32,944 bases of DNA from a virus, in the IMG/VR virus record IMGVR_UViG_3300027771_000053, positions 1-32,944 of that record. The stretch is one strand, 5' to 3'. Both the position numbers and the translations under genes were made by a program. Shown here one piece after another: positions 1 to 32,944 of the stretch (position 1 is its first letter; every line of letters begins with the position of its first letter). A model generated the notes under the pieces. The model was not told where the DNA came from and made no database searches. It saw nothing but the letters and a program-made list of their open reading frames with translations.

Positions 1-601
1 CAATGGCTTCTTGTACGTGGTAGCCTGTGGGGGCCTCAGTGGAGGTTATGATGACACCACACTGACTGAACTCTCTCACATCGCTAAGAAGTACAAGGTT
101 AATGAGGTGGTAGTGGAGAGCAACTTTGGTGATGGTATGTTCATCAAGCTACTGCAACCCGTCATCTCCAAGATACACCCAGTGATGATTGAAGAGGTGA
201 GACACAGTAAGCAGAAGGAACGGCGTATCATTGATACCCTCGAACCTGTCATGATGAGACATAAACTTGTCTTTGACCCAAGGGTAATCGAGGAAGACTA
301 CAGGACCGCTCAGAAGTACGAGCAAGCTGTAAGGTTTCATAAGATGCTGATCTACCAGATGACACGTATCACAACTGACAAAGGTTCGCTTAAACACGAT
401 GACCGCTTGGATGCACTTAGCATGGCCGTGGGTTACTTCGTGGAACAAATGAACCGTGATGATGTTGATGGTGAGGTTGCACACAAAGAAAGCTTACTAG
501 ACAACGAGCTAGAGAAGTTCATCAATCATGTTGATAATCCAACTCAGGTCAGTAAGCCTGTGCTATCTGATGGACCTATAATGTTCACATCATTTAGATG
601 A
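1..601 (+). CDS. Terminase large subunit, C-terminal part (T7 gp19-like; cut by window start)
   Basis: This is the end of the DNA-packaging motor subunit. The C-terminal nuclease domain of the large terminase cuts concatemeric phage DNA, while the ATPase domain (not in the window) pumps it into the prohead. The reading frame is open from base 2 and stops at TGA 599-601, so no true start lies here. Two acidic motifs typical of the RNase H-like terminase nuclease are visible: VVVESNFGDG early in the fragment and HDDRLDALSMAVGYF near its end. About 199 residues are present. It lies tail to tail with the leftward cassette, with a hairpin in the gap. In T7 the terminase is also near the right genome end, which fits the neighbouring control region being the left end of the map. 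The family call is firm; the exact cleavage mechanism (terminal repeat type) is inferred. Confidence 0.88.
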   Translation, partial: NGFLYVVACGGLSGGYDDTTLTELSHIAKKYKVNEVVVESNFGDGMFIKLLQPVISKIHPVMIEEVRHSKQKERRIIDTLEPVMMRHKLVFDPRVIEEDYRTAQKYEQAVRFHKMLIYQMTRITTDKGSLKHDDRLDALSMAVGYFVEQMNRDDVDGEVAHKESLLDNELEKFINHVDNPTQVSKPVLSDGPIMFTSFR

Positions 602-2968: not shown

Positions 2969-3049
2969 ATGTCAATCATCGCTGCAATCATCATCACAGT
3001 CATCAGCCTAGCGATACCCACAGCAATCGCAATTTGGTTCAACACTTAA
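2969..3049 (+). CDS. Membrane micro-peptide (26 aa)
   Basis: The peptide starts MSIIAAIIITVISLAIPTA and ends IWFNT. It is a single hydrophobic helix of about 22 residues. An AGGAAA site (about 2955) stands nine bases before the ATG, and the gene fits between its neighbours with 4 and 29 bp gaps. No family is recognised. The case for being real rests on the ribosome site, the tight packing and the two other hydrophobic small genes in the same operon. Confidence 0.5.
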   Translation: MSIIAAIIITVISLAIPTAIAIWFNT

Positions 3050-3051
3050 TC

Positions 3052-3083
3052 AATACTTACCCAAGGGATACTATTACCATGAA
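3052..3083 (+). repeat. 32-bp duplicated leader, copy 1
   Basis: These 32 bases, running from AATACTTACCCAAGGGATAC through the start codon of the gene at 3079, are repeated exactly at 3818-3849 before the gene at 3845. The block contains the ribosome site (AAGGGA), the ATG and the first bases of codon 2, so both genes have the same initiation region. Confidence 0.9.
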
Positions 3084-3819
3084 CAATTCAGCAATCATTT
3101 ACCGCGGCCCATCACTTATCGATAACACTCCTATTGTAGTCGTTGCGACCTATTCAAAGCGCAACAAAAAGACAGGCACCATGGTCCAGACATATATCAT
3201 GGTGGATGGTATGAAACCAACGGATGCTAGCAAGTGTGGTGCTGACTATTCTATTTGCGGCAATTGTCCACATCGTGGCATTGCAACGGATGATCCAACC
3301 AAGAAACAAGCAATCAAACGCTCGTGCTATGTTGTGCTTGGTCAAGGTCCAACCATTGTTCATAAGTCTATTGAGCGCGGTGTGTATCCAACAGTAACAG
3401 GACACGAGGCAATTGCGGCGCTTGGTCGTGGCAAGATGGTGCGTCTTGGCACCTATGGTGATCCAGCGGCCGTTCCTAGTTACGTTTGGGACAGTCTAAT
3501 AAGCGACGCTAAAGGTCACACAGCATACAGTCATCAATCGAATTGTGCGACTGCCGAACAGCGTCCCGATATCTATATGACAAGCGCGGACAATGTTGAA
3601 CAAGCGCAAGCGGCATGGTCACGCGGCGAACGTACATTCCGTGTTGTATCGTCACTATCCGACATTGTGCGCGGTAAGGAAATCAGTTGTCCCGCGTCAA
3701 AAGAGGCTGGGCAGCGCGTATCCTGTATCGATTGCAAGTTGTGTGTTGGATCATCCATCGCCGCTAAGTCTATCGCCATCGTTGCTCATGGTGCTGGTGC
3801 AACTCACTTTGCCGCCTAA
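3079..3819 (+). CDS. Cysteine-rich conserved phage protein, function unknown (246 aa)
   Basis: The protein has two cysteine groups: C53-x6-C60-x2-C63 (KCGADYSICGNCPHR) with C83, and C204-x11-C216-x2-C219-x2-C222 (ending CIDCKLC). Between them is RLGTYGDPAAVP, and near the end KSIAIVAHG. I recognise this layout from an uncharacterised family in marine phages and plasmids (I believe DUF7227-like). The cysteines suggest a zinc or iron-sulfur site, and the pattern recalls radical-SAM-related phage proteins, but a CxxxCxxC motif is not seen. I chose ATG 3079 over an upstream in-frame GTG-type start because AAGGGA precedes it and the same leader is duplicated before the next gene. It is by far the largest early gene before the integrase, so it probably has the main early function. 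Confidence 0.75.
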   Translation: MNNSAIIYRGPSLIDNTPIVVVATYSKRNKKTGTMVQTYIMVDGMKPTDASKCGADYSICGNCPHRGIATDDPTKKQAIKRSCYVVLGQGPTIVHKSIERGVYPTVTGHEAIAALGRGKMVRLGTYGDPAAVPSYVWDSLISDAKGHTAYSHQSNCATAEQRPDIYMTSADNVEQAQAAWSRGERTFRVVSSLSDIVRGKEISCPASKEAGQRVSCIDCKLCVGSSIAAKSIAIVAHGAGATHFAA

Positions 3820-4976: not shown

Positions 4977-5023
4977 TATTTAGGCTATATTAAAGTATAC
5001 GACACATCATATTGGATATTAAA

Positions 5024-5365
5024 ATGCTTAGAAAGCATGGAGAAATTAAGAAACTGATTAAGGCCCTAGAGGTATTCAAGGAAATCGACAGTTCCATGTC
5101 GTTGCCCTCGATGCTGGCCTTTCTTCATTACCATGATGTTGAGAACAACAGCGGCAACCGCACAATCGTTGCGGAACGCTTAGACATGACGGGTGCCACT
5201 GCGACCCGTGCGACCCTTTACTGGGCCGACTTCAAAACACCAAGGGCCAAAGGTAAGGATATGCTTGAACTTACCCAAGACCCCATGAACCGTCGCGCGA
5301 ACATCGTACAGTATAACCGCAAGGGCATAGAGTTCCTTGATAAACTCACGGAGGCTATGGAATGA
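5024..5365 (+). CDS. Winged-helix (MarR-like) regulator next to integrase
   Basis: The 113-residue product looks like a small winged-helix DNA-binding protein: helices around KKLIKALEVFKEIDSSM and LPSMLAFLHYHDVENN, a helix-turn-helix at about residues 45-70 (RTIVAERLDMTGATATRATL), a beta wing near LELTQDPMNRRANIVQYN and a final helix EFLDKLTEAME. This order matches MarR-type proteins. The start is taken as ATG 5024; a TTG at 5012 is also in frame, and neither has a strong ribosome site, so the gene may be poorly translated or leaderless. Its stop overlaps the integrase start (ATGA). It is a good candidate for a lysogeny regulator or integration directionality factor. Target sites are unknown. 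Confidence 0.65.
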   Translation: MLRKHGEIKKLIKALEVFKEIDSSMSLPSMLAFLHYHDVENNSGNRTIVAERLDMTGATATRATLYWADFKTPRAKGKDMLELTQDPMNRRANIVQYNRKGIEFLDKLTEAME

Positions 5366-6366
5366 GCGTTGCAAAAAGAGGTAGTAAGTATCAAGCGCGG
5401 GTGAAAGAACCCAAGGGGGGCAAGTACCACCGCGTGACCTTTGATACCCTAGAGGCCGCAGAGTTCTGGGAAGGGAAAGCCAAGACCGCAATCATGAGCG
5501 GTTTACCTGTGCCTGATGTTAACGATAGCGCAACAGTTACCATCAGATCACTAGCTGATAGATATTCTGCGTATCTGTGGCCTAATCAACGCCGCAAGAT
5601 GATTGAGACAGATGTGCGCCACGCGGAGCGTCTGCTACCCTTAGACCCGCTAACACTTACGACAAGGGATGTTATTCGTTTTGTGGAAAAGCGTAAGGGT
5701 GAGGGGGTAGGTGATACCACCATCAGGATGAACATCACCCGTGTTAAGACCTTGCTCAAACACAGTCATAAGATGGGCGACATACACCTATCCAACCTGA
5801 TCGAGTGGCCCACGTTCAAGAGTGGATCATCACGGGTGCGCTACCTCACCGTAGAGGAAGAACTGGCCCTTCTAGAGGCCCTCAAGGTCACTGACTACCG
5901 TATGCTGGCCCAGTTCCTCATTGATACAGGTTGTCGCCCCTCTGAGGTTGTCCCTACGGCTGCTGTGGTATCTCAACCGTTCGAGTGGTCCGATGTATCC
6001 AAGAGCAAGGATGGGCGCACACTGATCACCCTTTGGAAAACCAAGACCAACACGCCGCGAACTGTGCCACTCACCACGAGGGCAGTAGAGGCCCTTGAGT
6101 GGTCCCGCGAGGAAGGACATGTGCGACCCTTCGACAGCATCACTTACCCGCGCTTCAAGGATTACGTTGTGAGTGTCTCGCATGAACTGGGGCTGCGCGA
6201 TGTTGTTGTATATACATTCAGGCATACGTGTGCCTCAAGATTGGTACAGCGGGGAGCAGACATCATGCGTGTGAAACAGTGGATGGGGCATAGCAATATC
6301 GAGACTACACTAGGTTATGCAAAGCTGGCACCTGAGGACATCTATTCGCTTACAGATTTACTGTGA
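5362..6366 (+). CDS. int: Tyrosine-family site-specific integrase
   Basis: This 334-residue recombinase would integrate the phage genome at a host attachment site. An N-terminal arm-binding region (residues about 1-55, SKYQARVKEPKGGKYHRVTF) is followed by a SAM-like core-binding domain (about 60-160) and the catalytic domain. Catalytic residues seen are R192 (DTGCRPSEV), R287 in TFRHTCASR, H310 in MGHSN and nucleophile Y319 in TLGYAKL. The HxxR box has Tyr (Y284) in the His position, a natural variant of the family. It starts in an ATGA overlap with the regulator gene, so both are made together. The domain set is complete, so it is probably active, and the phage is probably temperate despite its T7-like plan. 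Confidence 0.93.
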   Translation: MSVAKRGSKYQARVKEPKGGKYHRVTFDTLEAAEFWEGKAKTAIMSGLPVPDVNDSATVTIRSLADRYSAYLWPNQRRKMIETDVRHAERLLPLDPLTLTTRDVIRFVEKRKGEGVGDTTIRMNITRVKTLLKHSHKMGDIHLSNLIEWPTFKSGSSRVRYLTVEEELALLEALKVTDYRMLAQFLIDTGCRPSEVVPTAAVVSQPFEWSDVSKSKDGRTLITLWKTKTNTPRTVPLTTRAVEALEWSREEGHVRPFDSITYPRFKDYVVSVSHELGLRDVVVYTFRHTCASRLVQRGADIMRVKQWMGHSNIETTLGYAKLAPEDIYSLTDLL

Positions 6367-6638: not shown

Positions 6639-9125
6639 ATGTACACAAGAGAACTTATAGATATTCAGCACGAACTCGAAGAAGAGATGCGTGGTGCTGC
6701 AATTACTCGATTCCATGACCGACACACCAAGGCGATGGAAAAGAAATTCTTTGGAGAGAGTGCCGCAGGGCAAACTATCCTTAGGCAAATCATTCAACCC
6801 TTCTCTGACGCGATTACCGAGTGGACCACTGAGGCCCTTTCTGGTGGCGGGGGTCGTCGATCCACTGCGGCCCTGATGGTACGTGAGTTCGATGATACTG
6901 ATGCTATGGCTTATATCTTTGCTAAGTCGGTTATCAACGCTGTGCCTATGTTACAGAACAAGGCAGGTACAGCATCACGCACAGGTGTGGTCCTAACTAG
7001 CACCAATGCGGTCCATGACGAACTGAGGTTGCGCTGGTTTAGCAAGAACAACCGCATGATCTTTCGTCGAATCATGAAAGACTGCGACACGCGGAACCTA
7101 CCAAGGCAACGCCGCAAAGACGTTTACAAGAAAGAGTTCAAGCGCAGACAGATCGAATGGGTGGCCGATCAGTGGCACACCAAGAACCGCGTACATCTAG
7201 GCATGAGGCTTCTAGAGATATTCCGAGACGTGACGGGGATGGTTGATCTGGCTGAGATACGACAGGCGAACGGTAAACGCCGCGCCATCGTACAAGCAAC
7301 ACCAGCGATGATGGCAATGCTAAAGGATCGCTTAGAGCGTAGCGAACACATGTTTCCTATCTTTTACCCGATGGTGGTCAAGCCTAACCCTTGGACTAAT
7401 GACTGTCTTGTGGGTTCTGCTTATCTGACGCACCACGTTCAGCCATACAAACTGATCAAACGTGCAAAGATGAACTACCTATCTGAGATGGAGAACACGG
7501 ACATTTCCATCACGCTCAATGCAGTCAATGCGTTACAAGAGACACCGTGGAGAGTGAACAGCGAGATGCTGGATGCTTTACGCTTTGTCTACACCAACAG
7601 CCTACAGGTGGACAAACTACCACCACCTGATGATCTGCCCCTTCCTCCGCTCGTCCATGACATCACTGATGAGACTGCGCGGAAGAAAAACAGTGCAGCT
7701 TGTGCGCGTGTACACAATCAGAACCGCAAGTTTGTATCTAAGCGGTTGGCTTTGCTTCAAGTGATGCAGCTTGCAGATAGGTTCAAGGACTTCAACGAAT
7801 TGTATTTCCCACATGATCTATGTTCACGGGGCAGGGCGTACCCGAAGCCTCACTACCTTAACCCACAAGGCCCAGCCTATACTCGCAGTCTCTTAGAGTT
7901 CAGTGAGGGTAAGGCAATCGAGACCGAGGAACAGGTTGAGTATATTGCAATCGTGGGTGCGAATGCTTTTGGGCATGATAAGTTACCTATGGCCGAGCGT
8001 ATCCAATGGGTGTGGGATAATGAGGACATGTTCGTGGACATCGCAAACAACTGGAAAGAGGACCAAAGGTGGACAGAAGCGGATAGTCCTTTCGAGTTCT
8101 TGCGGTTCTGTTTGGAGTGGCGCGAACTTTCAAAGACAGGCGTTGGTCATGTGTCACATCTTCCAATCAACTTTGATGCAACTTGCTCTGGTCTCCAACA
8201 CTTTAGCGCCTTGTTGTTTGATAAAGAGGGTGGCTTCAACGTCAACCTCACAGGCCATGCGGAACGTCAGGACATCTACGGTGCCGTGGCTAAACTGGCA
8301 AAGGCTTCAATTGAGGCCGATTTAAACTGCGATGAGAAAGGGACCCTTGCTCGTGCTGCACTGGAACTGAAGATTGATCGTAAGCTAACCAAGAGACCCG
8401 TGATGATCGTGCCATACTCAGGTACGTTCAAGGCTTGTATGCGTTATGTGCAGGAGCATTACGATGAACTGCGTGATGCTGGTGTGGTGATGCCGCTCAG
8501 AGATGATGACATGAGCTACAGGTTGGTTCCTTACGTTGCCCGAAAAGTCTGGGATAGTATTTCTATGACTGTTGTGGCCGCGAGGGATGCAATGGATTGG
8601 ATCACTAAGATTGCTCGATTGGTTACAAAGAACGAGAACCCTTTGCCGTTCATGTGGAGTACACCTACAGGGTTCGTTGTGCAGCAAGCTAAGTACAGCA
8701 TGGATCGACACTCTGTTCAGACCATGATCGACGGACGGATGCTAAAGGTTGAGTTCCTGACTGACAGCAAAGTGCTTGATGCAAACAAGAACGCTCAATC
8801 TCTATCGCCTAACTACATCCACAGTATGGATGCGGCACACCTACAGCTAACGATCAACAAGGCAAAGCAAAGCGACAGGAACATGTCGTTCTGTATGATC
8901 CACGATAGCTTTGGGGTTCACGCGGCAGACATGGATTACTTTCTACACGAATGTATCAAGCCAAGTTTCTATGAGATGTATAAGGACGGTAATGTCTTGC
9001 AGAAATTCTTGGAAGAGATACTTCCGTTGATCCCAGAGAAATCTAGGAAAAACATACCACCAATCCCAGAACTAGGTAACTTGGATATTTCCGATGTGCT
9101 GAATAGTGAGTTCTTCTTTAGCTAA
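6639..9125 (+). CDS. Single-subunit DNA-dependent RNA polymerase (T7 gp1-like)
   Basis: This enzyme transcribes the middle and late phage genes from short specific promoters. The product has 828 residues (T7: 883). The palm motif A is FDATCSGLQH with D513; motif B is KLTKRPVMIVPYSGT with K585 and Y593; motif C is IHDSFGVHAAD with D756. The C-terminus ends in FFFS, like the FAFA foot of T7 polymerase, which is needed for activity. An N-terminal helical region (about residues 1-270) corresponds to the promoter-binding and T7-lysozyme-sensitive part. TGGAGC lies eight bases before the ATG. The phage promoter just upstream, and matching sites at 1946, 2022, 9153, 10817 and 16535, are its predicted targets. 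All catalytic residues are present. Confidence 0.97.
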   Translation: MYTRELIDIQHELEEEMRGAAITRFHDRHTKAMEKKFFGESAAGQTILRQIIQPFSDAITEWTTEALSGGGGRRSTAALMVREFDDTDAMAYIFAKSVINAVPMLQNKAGTASRTGVVLTSTNAVHDELRLRWFSKNNRMIFRRIMKDCDTRNLPRQRRKDVYKKEFKRRQIEWVADQWHTKNRVHLGMRLLEIFRDVTGMVDLAEIRQANGKRRAIVQATPAMMAMLKDRLERSEHMFPIFYPMVVKPNPWTNDCLVGSAYLTHHVQPYKLIKRAKMNYLSEMENTDISITLNAVNALQETPWRVNSEMLDALRFVYTNSLQVDKLPPPDDLPLPPLVHDITDETARKKNSAACARVHNQNRKFVSKRLALLQVMQLADRFKDFNELYFPHDLCSRGRAYPKPHYLNPQGPAYTRSLLEFSEGKAIETEEQVEYIAIVGANAFGHDKLPMAERIQWVWDNEDMFVDIANNWKEDQRWTEADSPFEFLRFCLEWRELSKTGVGHVSHLPINFDATCSGLQHFSALLFDKEGGFNVNLTGHAERQDIYGAVAKLAKASIEADLNCDEKGTLARAALELKIDRKLTKRPVMIVPYSGTFKACMRYVQEHYDELRDAGVVMPLRDDDMSYRLVPYVARKVWDSISMTVVAARDAMDWITKIARLVTKNENPLPFMWSTPTGFVVQQAKYSMDRHSVQTMIDGRMLKVEFLTDSKVLDANKNAQSLSPNYIHSMDAAHLQLTINKAKQSDRNMSFCMIHDSFGVHAADMDYFLHECIKPSFYEMYKDGNVLQKFLEEILPLIPEKSRKNIPPIPELGNLDISDVLNSEFFFS

Positions 9126-9311: not shown

Positions 9312-9516
9312 CGTCAAGTTCACTCACAACATTTACGAAATTGATGATGGGGAAACCATGCCCATCACGATCATGGTGGACCCTGAAGGGTTTCACTTAA
9401 CACAACCAGACTACTCGTGGGGTGATGATCATATCACCATCACATGGACGCAACTTATGGGTCTCTTTGAGGTCGTCGAGAAAATAGAAGGAATGTTTAA
9501 ACATGGCAGACATTAA
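9304..9516 (+). CDS. Small acidic hypothetical protein (70 aa)
   Basis: No family is recognised. The protein is rich in Asp, Glu and beta-branched residues (ITIMVDPEGFHL, DDHITITWTQL) and ends FKHGRH. I chose TTG 9304 because GAGGAA lies seven bases upstream and the start overlaps the previous stop; TTG 9289 or ATG 9358 (after GGGG) are alternatives. The 3' end overlaps the SSB start by 14 bp. Coupling to SSB suggests service in DNA replication, by position only. Confidence 0.55.
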   Translation: MSSVKFTHNIYEIDDGETMPITIMVDPEGFHLTQPDYSWGDDHITITWTQLMGLFEVVEKIEGMFKHGRH

Positions 9517-10096
9517 CATCGCACTACCACTAGGTCGTGCAATCTACCCCGCACTCAAGACGGCGGACACCAAGTTCCATGAACTGGGCCAATACAAGTG
9601 CAACGTCAGTGTTCCTCTCAAGGAAGCTTCAGGCACGATGGAGAAGCTCACAGGTATCTTCAAAGACCACACAGGCAAGGCACCTACAAAGGCCGACAAC
9701 ACGATGTGGAAAATGGAGACAGATCAGGACACAGGTGAGGAGACAGGTAACGTCATCTTTAAGTGTTCCGTGAAGAATGTTCAGCGGCGTGACGGGGACC
9801 TATGGGACCGCCGACCAAAGCAGTTTGATGCAAAGATGAACCCAGTGAACCTTGATCCGTATGGTGGCACAGAACTCTACGTGTCTGCCTCAGTATATGC
9901 GTGGTCCGCAGCGGGTAAGAAAGGTGTCAGTCTTCAACCAATGGCTGTTCAGATTATCAACCTGATCGAGCGTGAAGGTGGCACGGCTGAAGGCTTCGGC
10001 TTTCAAACACAAGAAGGTTTCCAATCAGAAGAAACCAATTATAATTTTGAGGCAGTAAATGAAACAACCCAAGAAGAGTCCTTCGAAGACTTCTAA
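9503..10096 (+). CDS. Single-stranded DNA-binding protein (T7 gp2.5-like)
   Basis: The protein coats single-stranded DNA at the replication fork and organises polymerase and helicase through its acidic tail. It has 197 residues (T7 gp2.5: 232). The OB-fold body covers about residues 1-165, and the C-terminus is the diagnostic acidic tail TTQEESFEDF with a final Phe. Conserved-looking patches are NVSVPLKEASGTMEKL and KQFDAKMNPV. It is followed directly by endonuclease I, whose ATG lies 38 bp inside this gene in another frame, the same order as T7 genes 2.5 and 3. Start ATG 9503 has GAAGGAA about nine bases upstream. Confidence 0.9.
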   Translation: MADINIALPLGRAIYPALKTADTKFHELGQYKCNVSVPLKEASGTMEKLTGIFKDHTGKAPTKADNTMWKMETDQDTGEETGNVIFKCSVKNVQRRDGDLWDRRPKQFDAKMNPVNLDPYGGTELYVSASVYAWSAAGKKGVSLQPMAVQIINLIEREGGTAEGFGFQTQEGFQSEETNYNFEAVNETTQEESFEDF

Positions 10097-10502
10097 AGCG
10101 GTTGGTTTAAAGCACGGGTTCCGTTCAGGATTAGAGGAACGGATATCCAGAGAGTTAGAAGGTACAGGTTGTTGTTTCACCTACGAGCAAGAGGTTATCA
10201 AATATGATAAGCCAGCACGTACAAGTAAATACACGCCTGACTTCATAATCCAGAAGCGTCCTGATGACACAGTTAAAGAGCGTCCCTTGGTAATAGAATC
10301 CAAGGGGCGCTTCCTCACATCTGACCGTCAGAAACATCTGCTTATAAAAAATCAACACCCTGAGGTTGATATAAGGTTCGTCTTTTCGAACTCACGTCAA
10401 CGTATCAGTAAACAATCTAACACAACTTACGCCATGTGGTGTGAGAAACACAGCTTCCTGTACGCGGATGGATCAGTTCCTGACGTATGGCTGTGGGAGT
10501 GA
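10059..10502 (+). CDS. Endonuclease I, Holliday junction resolvase (T7 gp3-like)
   Basis: This enzyme cuts branched DNA and degrades host DNA for nucleotide supply. It has 147 residues, like T7. The active site is readable: E26 in FRSGLEERI, D61 in YTPDF, and E80 and K82 in VIESKG; these match T7 E20, D55, E65 and K67. The match continues through KHLLIKNQHPEVDIRFVFS and WCEKH. Compared with T7 there are about nine extra residues between D61 and E80 (QKRPDDTVKERP). It overlaps the SSB gene by 38 bp and is overlapped by or abuts the lysozyme-like gene. The T7 enzyme is a domain-swapped dimer; that is likely but not visible here. Confidence 0.93.
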   Translation: MKQPKKSPSKTSKAVGLKHGFRSGLEERISRELEGTGCCFTYEQEVIKYDKPARTSKYTPDFIIQKRPDDTVKERPLVIESKGRFLTSDRQKHLLIKNQHPEVDIRFVFSNSRQRISKQSNTTYAMWCEKHSFLYADGSVPDVWLWE

Positions 10503-10504
10503 AT

Positions 10505-10930
10505 ATGTATAACAATAATAAGAAGCGTGATGAAACGCTCTACTTGATCGTTGATCATTCAGGCACGACACCCACCATCGACATCGACGTAGACAACCAA
10601 GACAACCGAGATCGCTCTAAGGGCTTCTACGGTTGCAGGTATCACTACGTGATTACACGCGAAGGTGAAGTACAGGAGGGGCGTACACTTGATAGAGTGT
10701 CGCCTCTTACTGGTGTCTATGACAACGAAAGCGTGACTGTATGTTTGGTGGGCGGGAAGAACCTTGAGGGTGAAGCAGAAGACAACTTCACTGACGCCCA
10801 AAAAGAAGCCCTAAAACAATTAATCACCGTGTCTAGAAAATCGAATCCAAACTTACAGGTCTTGGGTCGAAAGGAAGTACGCAAGCAGAGGACCACAGGT
10901 CCCGCGCTCGATCTCACACCTTTTAGATAA
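10505..10930 (+). CDS. T7 lysozyme (gp3.5)-like protein with altered zinc site
   Basis: T7 lysozyme is an amidase that cleaves peptidoglycan and also binds and slows T7 RNA polymerase. This 141-residue protein keeps the fold: CRYHYVITREGEVQEGR with Y46, and ESVTVCLVGG followed by NFTDAQKEAL. By alignment from memory, T7 ligands H17, H122 and C130 fall on D17, R122-K123 and G132. So all three zinc ligands are changed (H18 is one place off), and amidase activity is doubtful. The RNA polymerase-binding role may be what is kept. I chose ATG 10505 because GGGAG lies six bases upstream; an in-frame ATG at 10487 is possible. A phage promoter sits inside its 3' part. Confidence 0.8.
   Translation: MYNNNKKRDETLYLIVDHSGTTPTIDIDVDNQDNRDRSKGFYGCRYHYVITREGEVQEGRTLDRVSPLTGVYDNESVTVCLVGGKNLEGEAEDNFTDAQKEALKQLITVSRKSNPNLQVLGRKEVRKQRTTGPALDLTPFR
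10817..10840 (+). promoter_or_regulatory. Phage promoter inside the lysozyme-like gene
   Basis: ATTAATCACCGTGTCTAGAA is identical over 20 bases to the copy at 2022-2047. It lies about 100 bases before the primase-helicase start, within codons for QLITVSRKS. Because it is conserved inside coding sequence, selection for the DNA signal is likely. Confidence 0.75.
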
Positions 10931-10940
10931 TGGAGATATC

Positions 10941-12548
10941 ATGGATACTCATGAAGAAAGCACTCTCGTTGCACATGGCCCTTGCGATAGCTGCGGGTCC
11001 TCTGATGCAAACGCAGAGTACACTGACGGGCATTCATTCTGTTTCTCCTGTCAGGTCAGGACCAATGGTGGCAAATCGCAACCTGTCGTGGCCACAAAGA
11101 TCAATCCTGACCTGATACCTATTGGAAACTTCCTAGCCCTATCTAAACGTAAGATCACTGAGGATACCGCACGTAAGTTTGGTTACTCAACATCCACGTT
11201 CAAGGGGCATACTGTTCAAGTCGCTAACTATAAGCGCAACGGGCAGATCATTGCGCAGAAGATACGTTTCCCACAAAAAGACTTCCTGATGTTGGGTAAC
11301 GCTAAAGAGTGTGGCCTCTTCGGACAGCACCTCTGGCGACAGGCAGGTAAAACTCTGGTTATCACAGAGGGCGAGGTGGATTGCCTTACTGTGTCCCAAG
11401 CCATGTCCAAAGATAACAAGTGGCCTGTTGTATCCATTCCAAAGGGTGCCGCTGGTGCTGCGAAAGCAATCAAGGCAGAGCTTGAGTTCGTATCGTCATA
11501 TCAGAAAGTCGTGATCATGATGGACAGCGATGAGGCTGGTCAGAAAGCTGCCATTGAGATTGCGCAGCTACTTAAACCATCACAGGCTTACATCGCTGAA
11601 CTACCAGCTAAAGACCCTTCCGAACTGATGATGACAGGAAGAAGCCACGAGATCATCAACGCGTTCTGGGAAGCTAAACCTTATCGACCCGATGGGATCG
11701 TGCAGGGTGCTGACATCTGGGAAGACATCGTTGCTGAAGATAGTAGGGAGAGTATCCCTTGGCCGTATGAGGGACTGAACACTCTTACTCATGGTTTGCG
11801 ACGTGGTGAGTTGATCACATTGACCGCAGGGTCAGGTGTGGGGAAGTCTCAAGTGTGTCGTGAGATAGCTTATCACCTTGTGCAACAGGGAGAGACGCTG
11901 GGTTACGTTGCTTTGGAAGAGAACGTCAAACGGACTGCGCTGGGCCTCATGGGTCTAGCGATCAACAAGCCGCTTCACATCTCTAAAGACGGTGTATCTG
12001 ATGAGGAACTTAAACGGTCCTTTGATGAAACCGTAGGCAGCGGACGGGTGTATCTGTATGACCACTTCGGTAGTCTCTCATCATCTCACCTCCTAGATAA
12101 AATCAGATACCTAGCCAAAGGCTGTGATGTTGGTTGGGTGATACTTGATCACTTATCAATAGCAGTTTCGGGGATTGATAATGGGGATGAGCGCAAAGCG
12201 ATTGATGTCCTAATGACTGAGCTACGGTCTCTAGTTGAAGAGACGGGGATTGGTATGATCCTTGTGTCACACCTCAAGAGACCTGAAGGCAACAAGGGTT
12301 ACGAAGAGGGACTTGCTACCTCACTCAATTCCTTACGGGGCAGTGCTTCGATCAGTCAGTTGTCAGATTCAGTTATTGGTCTTGAAAGAAACCAGCAGTC
12401 TGAGGATGAGGCAAACCAAGTGACTGTAAGGGTCCTGAAAAATAGATTCAGTGGTGAGACGGGCATAGCAACGAAGCTCTACTTCAACAAAGACACCAAT
12501 CGTCTTTCTGAGGCTGAGTTCGTGCAGGATGAGTTCAATGAATACTGA
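10941..12548 (+). CDS. Primase-helicase (T7 gp4-like)
   Basis: This is a bifunctional replication enzyme: it makes RNA primers and, as a hexamer, unwinds DNA ahead of the polymerase. It has 535 residues (T7: 566). A zinc-binding domain uses C15, C18, C34 and C37. The TOPRIM primase domain shows E143 (VITEGEVD) and D195-S-D197 (MMDSDEAG). The RecA-like helicase domain has Walker A TAGSGVGKSQ (K302), a catalytic Glu region VALEEN, and Walker B VILDHLS (D403), with a following SHLKRPEG segment. GGAG lies seven to eight bases before the ATG. No clear internal start for a helicase-only form like T7 gp4B is seen. It ends overlapping the next small gene. Confidence 0.96.
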   Translation: MDTHEESTLVAHGPCDSCGSSDANAEYTDGHSFCFSCQVRTNGGKSQPVVATKINPDLIPIGNFLALSKRKITEDTARKFGYSTSTFKGHTVQVANYKRNGQIIAQKIRFPQKDFLMLGNAKECGLFGQHLWRQAGKTLVITEGEVDCLTVSQAMSKDNKWPVVSIPKGAAGAAKAIKAELEFVSSYQKVVIMMDSDEAGQKAAIEIAQLLKPSQAYIAELPAKDPSELMMTGRSHEIINAFWEAKPYRPDGIVQGADIWEDIVAEDSRESIPWPYEGLNTLTHGLRRGELITLTAGSGVGKSQVCREIAYHLVQQGETLGYVALEENVKRTALGLMGLAINKPLHISKDGVSDEELKRSFDETVGSGRVYLYDHFGSLSSSHLLDKIRYLAKGCDVGWVILDHLSIAVSGIDNGDERKAIDVLMTELRSLVEETGIGMILVSHLKRPEGNKGYEEGLATSLNSLRGSASISQLSDSVIGLERNQQSEDEANQVTVRVLKNRFSGETGIATKLYFNKDTNRLSEAEFVQDEFNEY

Positions 12549-31896: not shown

Positions 31897-32944
31897 ATGC
31901 CCACAGTAAAATATTCCATTTCGGATTATATAGCCGATGGTACGACTACTGACTATTTGATCACTTGGGATTACCTTGATGACGACCATATTACGGTTGA
32001 AATTGATGGTGTTACCAACTCTGATCCATTAGCAAACCATACCTTCATAAAACTTAACAACACTACAGTTCGCGTCACCGATACTATTGGTAGTGCTATT
32101 GTGTCTGGTAAAGAAATCCAGATTAAACGTGCTACACCAATCACAACACGTCCTATTAGTTTTTCGGACGGTTCTGCCTTACTTGCGGCTGATCTTAATA
32201 AGAACTCGGACTACTTGCTGTTCTCCATGCAAGAAGCCTTGGATCAAGTTGACTTCTCTGTGCAGTACCAAGAGGAAGCTGAAGGTTTCAAGGACGCCAC
32301 AGAGGTGCTTCGCGATGAGACACAGGCATTGCGTAATCTGTCTGAGGCAGATGAGCAAACTGCAACCCAACAGGCCACTATTTCCACTACAAAAGCGGGT
32401 GAAGCTGCTGGTAGTGCTGCGGCTGCGTTGGTTTCTGAAAATGCTGCAAGTGTTTCAGCGGGTGAAGCACTGGCCAGTAAGAATGAGGCAACGACCCAAG
32501 CAGGTCTAGCAACCACTAATGGCGCTGCGCAGGTTTCTCTAGCTGCTGGACAGGTTGCTCTGGCAACGACCCAAGCAGGTCTAGCAACCACCAACGGTGC
32601 CACACAGGTTTCTCTAGCTGCTGGGCAAGTTGCACTGGCAACAACTCAAGTGGGTCTTGCAACCACTAAAGCTTCAGACGCTTCAGGTTCTGCATCGACT
32701 GCATCTGGTCACGCTAATACAGCCACTACACAAGCTGGAATAGCTACAACCAAAGCTGGCGAGGCATCTACATCAGCAACAACAGCGACTACCAAGGCTG
32801 GTGAGGCATCTACTAGCGCCTCTGCTGCTGCTGGTTCTGCCACTGCTGCTGCTGACTCCGCTGCTGCTGCGGCTGCTGCCTTTGATTCCTTTGACGATAA
32901 GTATCTTGGAAGCAAAACTGGATACGCGGGTAGCGGCACAGGCC
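31897..32944 (+). CDS. Tail fibre protein, N-terminal part (T7 gp17-like; cut by window end)
   Basis: The fibre binds the host receptor. The first 150 residues carry the T7 tail-fibre attachment domain: YSISDYIADGTTTDYLITWD, then IQIKRATPITTRPISFSDGS with LLAADLNKNSDYLLFSMQEA, which bind the tail. The rest is a long Ala-Thr-Gly-Ser-rich shaft with repeats (see 32488), likely a trimeric coiled coil. The frame is open to base 32944, so the receptor-binding tip and stop are missing. Start ATG 31897 follows ten bases after the gp16 homologue's stop. Confidence 0.93.
   Translation, partial: MPTVKYSISDYIADGTTTDYLITWDYLDDDHITVEIDGVTNSDPLANHTFIKLNNTTVRVTDTIGSAIVSGKEIQIKRATPITTRPISFSDGSALLAADLNKNSDYLLFSMQEALDQVDFSVQYQEEAEGFKDATEVLRDETQALRNLSEADEQTATQQATISTTKAGEAAGSAAAALVSENAASVSAGEALASKNEATTQAGLATTNGAAQVSLAAGQVALATTQAGLATTNGATQVSLAAGQVALATTQVGLATTKASDASGSASTASGHANTATTQAGIATTKAGEASTSATTATTKAGEASTSASAAAGSATAAADSAAAAAAAFDSFDDKYLGSKTGYAGSGTG
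32488..32671 (+). repeat. 75-bp in-frame repeat in the tail-fibre shaft
   Basis: Copies at 32488-32562 and 32563-32637 encode the same 25-residue unit ATTQAGLATTNGA plus AQVSLAAGQVAL, with few differences; a third partial copy begins at 32638. Shorter T-T-KAGEAS units follow to 32820. Such units set fibre length and can change copy number by recombination. Confidence 0.85.

Follow-up and report, generated by a model that had tools for sequence, protein, structure and literature searches.

The window, that is the whole 32,944-base virus record analysed here, is a T7-like genome from a group of ocean viruses infecting Roseobacter bacteria. Sequence and fold place the product of its gp3.5 gene in the T7-lysozyme family, although by its defining ligands it is no T7-type zinc amidase. 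Because the fold, the N-terminal tail, the gene position and the selection on the gene are kept while all zinc ligands have been lost, an amidase-dead polymerase regulator is the best reading of this protein. We consider it probable that the orthologue is retained for a non-enzymatic role, the binding of the phage RNA polymerase, and that a CHAP endolysin took over lysis.

T7 lysozyme is a textbook bifunctional phage protein and a component of the pET expression system, and its polymerase role apart from lysis has usually been studied with laboratory mutants. The homologues described below would represent a natural separation of the two functions, apparently made on more than one occasion, in phages that abound in the ocean.

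Identity, fold and genomic context

The gene order in the window runs integrase, single-subunit RNA polymerase, ssDNA-binding protein, endonuclease I, gp3.5 homologue, primase/helicase and DNA polymerase. The genes around the gp3.5 homologue were assigned as follows.

6639 to 9125, plus strand: single-subunit RNA polymerase, presumed partner of gp3.5 (Pfam RNA_pol, E 2.9e-90)
9503 to 10096, plus strand: gp2.5-like single-stranded DNA-binding protein (weak SBB_T7 match; the homologue in CRP-118 is so annotated)
10059 to 10502, plus strand: endonuclease I (gene 3), directly 5' of the gp3.5 gene (Phage_endo_I, E 3.5e-45)
10505 to 10930, plus strand: gp3.5, the T7-lysozyme homologue with replaced zinc ligands (open reading frame, sequence, profile, alignment and structure model)
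10941 to 12548, plus strand: primase/helicase (gene 4), directly 3' of the gp3.5 gene (position and annotation of the CRP-118 homologue)

The phage encodes a single-subunit RNA polymerase of its own, and the gp3.5 homologue is flanked by the endonuclease I and primase genes, a position that is kept in the related isolates CRP-118, CRP-403 and CRP-804. Its open reading frame is intact, with an ATG at 10505 and a stop codon ending at 10930, and encodes 141 amino acids. An alternative start at 10487 was rejected, since starting at 10505 yields a tail of T7-like length and agrees with the annotation of CRP-118 and CRP-403; the annotated gene of CRP-804 extends further at its 5' end.

The initial annotation had read the protein as a T7-lysozyme homologue, and this was borne out by a match to Pfam PF01510 Amidase_2 (36.5 bits against a curated cut-off of 26), by a match to the amidase family phrog_822 (E 2e-28) and by a sequence search of the PDB, in which T7 lysozyme (1ARO chain L) was the best match with an E value of 1.1e-12. 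It had also held that the fold and Y46 are kept. Consistent with this, a structure model of the window protein (pLDDT 93) found T7 lysozyme 1LBA as its top structural match (Z 22.1, 1.4 Å over 135 residues), and the comparison extended to the polymerase-bound form 1ARO_L, which gave Z 21.0. The window protein resembles T7 gp3.5 (1LBA; 1ARO with polymerase) in fold, length, gene position and Y46, and KKR..T in its tail lines up with KQR..T in T7.

Replacement of the zinc site

We aligned the residues of the window protein with T7 lysozyme and about 55 homologues. All three zinc ligands are replaced, as the initial annotation had proposed, namely T7 H17 by D17, H122 by R122 and C130 by G132, and the alignment added a fourth change, T130 at the position of the catalytic K128. 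T7 Y46 and H47 are both kept. The codons concerned are listed here.

10553 to 10555, plus strand: codon D17, T7 zinc ligand H17 (alignment; invariant in 19 clade members)
10640 to 10642, plus strand: codon Y46, T7 Y46, kept, with Phe in L022 (alignment)
10868 to 10870, plus strand: codon R122, T7 zinc ligand H122 (alignment; five synonymous codons in the clade)
10892 to 10894, plus strand: codon T130, T7 catalytic K128 (alignment)
10898 to 10900, plus strand: codon G132, T7 zinc ligand C130 (alignment; three synonymous codons in the clade)

A misaligned C-terminal motif was ruled out by the zinc-keeping homologue L019, in which HRDMRGVNKACPSFDV fits the window's RKEVRKQRTTGPALDL without a gap. 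The three zinc ligands of a T7-type amidase are absent from the window protein and from all 19 full-length members of its clade; of the catalytic pair, the clade keeps Y46 (except for the Phe in L022) and has Thr at the K128 position. T130 alone would not disable the enzyme, because the catalytic peptidoglycan recognition proteins (PGRPs) and the Ts2631 endolysin have Thr there as well (PMC4573324). Changes of single ligands in the related Ts2631 endolysin left 17.2% (H30N), 3.0% (H131N) and 11.8% (C139S) of its activity (PMC4573324). With the zinc site lost, N-acetylmuramoyl-L-alanine amidase activity would be gone, and the loss of amidase activity in the window protein is strongly supported by its sequence, by the chemistry and by these mutants of relatives. 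The earlier statement that without its metal the protein cannot act as an amidase is strengthened accordingly by the clade-wide replacement of all three ligands, by the nearly inactive Ts2631 ligand mutants (PMC4573324) and by the separate CHAP endolysin of the closest isolates.

A metal might nevertheless be held by rearranged ligands, for example D17 with H18, H47, C44 or C80, so that the protein would still be a peptidoglycan hydrolase. Asp is able to bind zinc, and H18, H47, C44 and C80, which are all the His and Cys residues of the window protein, are invariant in the clade. However, the alignment that includes zinc-keeping homologues shows H47 without exception and C80 almost throughout, and C44 is present in several of the zinc-keeping homologues; these three residues are therefore no compensation for the lost ligands. 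D17 and H18 alone are new in the clade, the other two ligand positions are now Arg and Gly, and the closest isolates encode a separate CHAP endolysin. A new zinc site is unlikely on these residues, and we give very little credence to a retained hydrolase. D17 and R122 should be neighbours, because in T7 one zinc ion is bound by both H17 and H122, and by this analogy a D17-R122 salt bridge may stand in place of the metal.

Loss of the ligands would also suit a protein that binds peptidoglycan without cutting it and senses or binds wall fragments. Non-catalytic PGRPs such as PGRP-SA and PGRP-SD have incomplete zinc ligands, so that these Drosophila proteins, like the window protein, combine an Amidase_2-type fold with the lack of a full zinc site, and the fold of the model is near that of PGRPs including these two (Z 15-17). 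PGRPs are, however, secreted or membrane immune receptors and only distantly similar in sequence to the window gp3.5, which opens directly with the conserved domain, shows no extra segment for export and is encoded within the replication block. In addition, the cleft-loop segment GSHAKGYN of T7 is replaced by SPLTGVYD. We regard a wall-binding role as very unlikely.

Conservation and selection in the roseophage clade

The replaced residues D17, R122, T130 and G132 were found in 19 of 19 clade sequences, comprising the window, three Roseobacter phage isolates and 15 IMG/VR contigs. Distinct sequences of the clade are 67-99% identical, with 69 of 141 positions invariant, and gp3.5 is full length wherever a contig covers the gene. 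The median pairwise dN/dS of 0.09 indicates strong purifying selection, and the codons for the four replaced residues show synonymous variation only. The 19 sequences and the synonymous variation in the replaced codons rule out chance and sequencing error. The clade gp3.5 is a protein under selection in which a new set of residues has been fixed at the old site.

The nearest isolates in gp3.5 are CRP-118 (80% identity), CRP-403 (79%) and CRP-804 (70%), which carry the same protein with the same replaced residues. They were described in the paper that first reported Autographiviridae roseophages (PMC11092137); gp3.5 is annotated as 'lysozyme' in these isolates, and the words lysozyme, amidase and zinc are absent from the text of that paper (PMC11092137). 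Our search of the literature found no discussion of zinc-site loss in gp3.5 homologues, which does not prove that there is none. Other roseophages, CRP-227, CRP-114, CRP-125 and CRP-171, keep H17/Y46/H122/K128/C130.

That gp3.5 is a functionless, decaying gene would agree with the lost active site and with a pelagiphage homologue, that of HTVC200P, which is cut down to 97 amino acids. Against this, the clade gene has the low dN/dS given above, its full length, and a conserved start and gene context, and we find decay scarcely credible. The conservation extends to segments near the old cleft, GRTLDRVSPLTG and QRT[TS]GPALDL, which vary little or not at all across the clade. This exceeds what simple relaxation would give and leaves a small but real chance that the catalytic cleft has taken on a new function by binding something other than the polymerase, a ligand or partner such as a replication protein or a nucleotide. 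The conservation could, however, equally come from folding or from polymerase binding.

Lysis genes in roseophages

The 5' end of the record lies inside the terminase large subunit gene (window 1-601) and its 3' end past the internal virion protein gene (32000-32944), which is the tail-fibre region in CRP-118. The record thus lacks the phage's own lysis genes, which fall outside it. Among the isolates, CRP-118 (gp39) and CRP-804 (gp40) encode a CHAP protein of 210-211 amino acids, followed by an Rz-like spanin gene. This protein has the motifs TPWCAAF, GHVAFY and GGNQGN, with the catalytic Cys, His and Asn, and a hydrophobic C-terminal segment. CHAP is also present in CRP-403 and in contigs of the zinc-less clade. 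Lysis would have passed to this endolysin, whose gene lies with that of the spanin, flanked by the tail-fibre and terminase genes.

In the zinc-keeping CRP-227, CRP-114, CRP-125 and CRP-171, family searches prone to misses gave no match to CHAP, Phage_lysozyme or Glucosaminidase; a separate scan of the lysis-region open reading frames of CRP-227 and CRP-125 found a holin there. Over the contigs, the family searches missed CHAP in two cases, both with a CHAP-encoding locus, and the lysozyme of one pelagiphage-type contig (L207) was missed in one family scan and found in another. Absences in these scans, including those for the zinc-keeping roseophages, are weak because known CHAP and lysozyme genes were missed.

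Parallel decay in pelagiphages

The sequences point to a decay of gp3.5 in pelagiphages that is parallel to that of the roseophage clade. As in the window, the site is broken and the gene kept in HTVC109P, HTVC021P and environmental relatives, whereas the residues lost are other ones (Y46F, C130S/A, H122Y/C), H17 being usually kept in pelagiphages and lost in the window clade. At positions 17/46/122/128/130, HTVC109P has H/F/Y/V/S and contig L031 has S/Y/L/Y/S; HTVC021P has C122 and S130, and HTVC019P and HTVC201P have C122, with which their proteins might still bind metal. In an environmental pelagiphage-type set of 80 loci (L166-L245), Y46F occurs in all 80 and C130 is changed in 54 (Ser in 45, Ala in 9), with H122 changed in few. 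The dN/dS of pelagiphage-type gp3.5 is 0.09-0.16, which again indicates purifying selection. Active-site decay was also observed in gp3.5 of L055, L031 and L065. In HTVC200P (L053:3605-5173), the 97-residue gp3.5 is followed by a hypothetical open reading frame and a thymidylate synthase gene before the primase.

Separate lysis genes were found in this group too. HTVC109P has adjoining glucosaminidase and phage-lysozyme genes 3' of the terminase gene (L062:13482-14440, gp53-gp54). Among contigs with C130S, L207 encodes a lysozyme whose N-terminal segment is hydrophobic and L217 a pesticin-type lysozyme domain; the second-endolysin candidate of the L031 contig has a weak match only (phrog_873). 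Pelagiphage-type contigs carry lysozymes 3' of the terminase gene (L247:7582-8193 and L249:14623-15345) that have a hydrophobic N-terminal segment in common and apparently different catalytic domains, gp54-like in L247 and Pesticin PF16754 in L249. These are possible signal-anchor-release endolysins with swapped domains.

Broken triads were accompanied by a second endolysin in 8 of 8 isolates, compared to 2 of 10 isolates with an intact triad (18 isolates; Fisher p 0.001, the isolates being related). HTVC168P and HTVC142P have an intact triad plus a second lysozyme. Placed on the polymerase tree, zinc loss takes a minimum of four changes, and the starred branches force only two. Zinc loss and second endolysin can be compared in 2-3 phylogenetically independent pairs, a number so small that a phylogenetically corrected test of the link is without power.

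A candidate regulator of the phage RNA polymerase

Zinc is required for the amidase activity of T7 lysozyme and not for its inhibition of the polymerase (PMC5445346), and it is the N-terminal tail that sets this inhibition (PMC10138996). For polymerase contact we considered the tail together with the first ~52 residues.

10505 to 10528, plus strand: N-terminal tail MYNNNKKR, aligned with the T7 tail (alignment; clade comparison)

The window tail matches the T7 length within one residue and is conserved in the clade; its sequence differs from that of T7. On the clade's RNA polymerase, 12 of 16 positions of the T7-type interface are invariant compared to 528 of 805 overall, which is no signal of conservation above background (p 0.6). 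Considering T7 biology, the retained fold, the gene position and the conserved tail, polymerase binding appears to be the best remaining role for the window protein, and the reading of the initial annotation as a pure polymerase regulator is plausible. Since the zinc residues are lost, the protein is conserved and the closest isolates have a separate wall-cutting enzyme, gp3.5 has probably been retained for its regulatory task only. By binding the phage RNA polymerase, it would restrain early transcription and promote the transition to replication and packaging.

A wider generalisation is that, in marine T7-like phages, gp3.5 has lost its enzyme function on repeated occasions and become a dedicated transcription/replication switch, here with a D17-R122 salt bridge for the metal and the cleft rebuilt for a partner. 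We offer this tentatively, with more doubt than belief. If true, these phages would provide a series of T7 switch proteins with naturally separated functions. Our reading predicts polymerase inhibitors without wall-cutting toxicity; it would also correct the 'lysozyme/endolysin' annotations in these phage genomes and indicate the real lysis enzymes.

Other features of the window

A tyrosine integrase gene and a small upstream open reading frame, with a MarR-like annotation in relatives, precede the RNA polymerase gene (window 5012-6366), which suggests an ability to integrate. No tRNA gene was found in the window. In the early region, an open reading frame of 261 amino acids (window 3034-3819) matches phrog_2554, a family of unknown function, with an E value of 2e-65.
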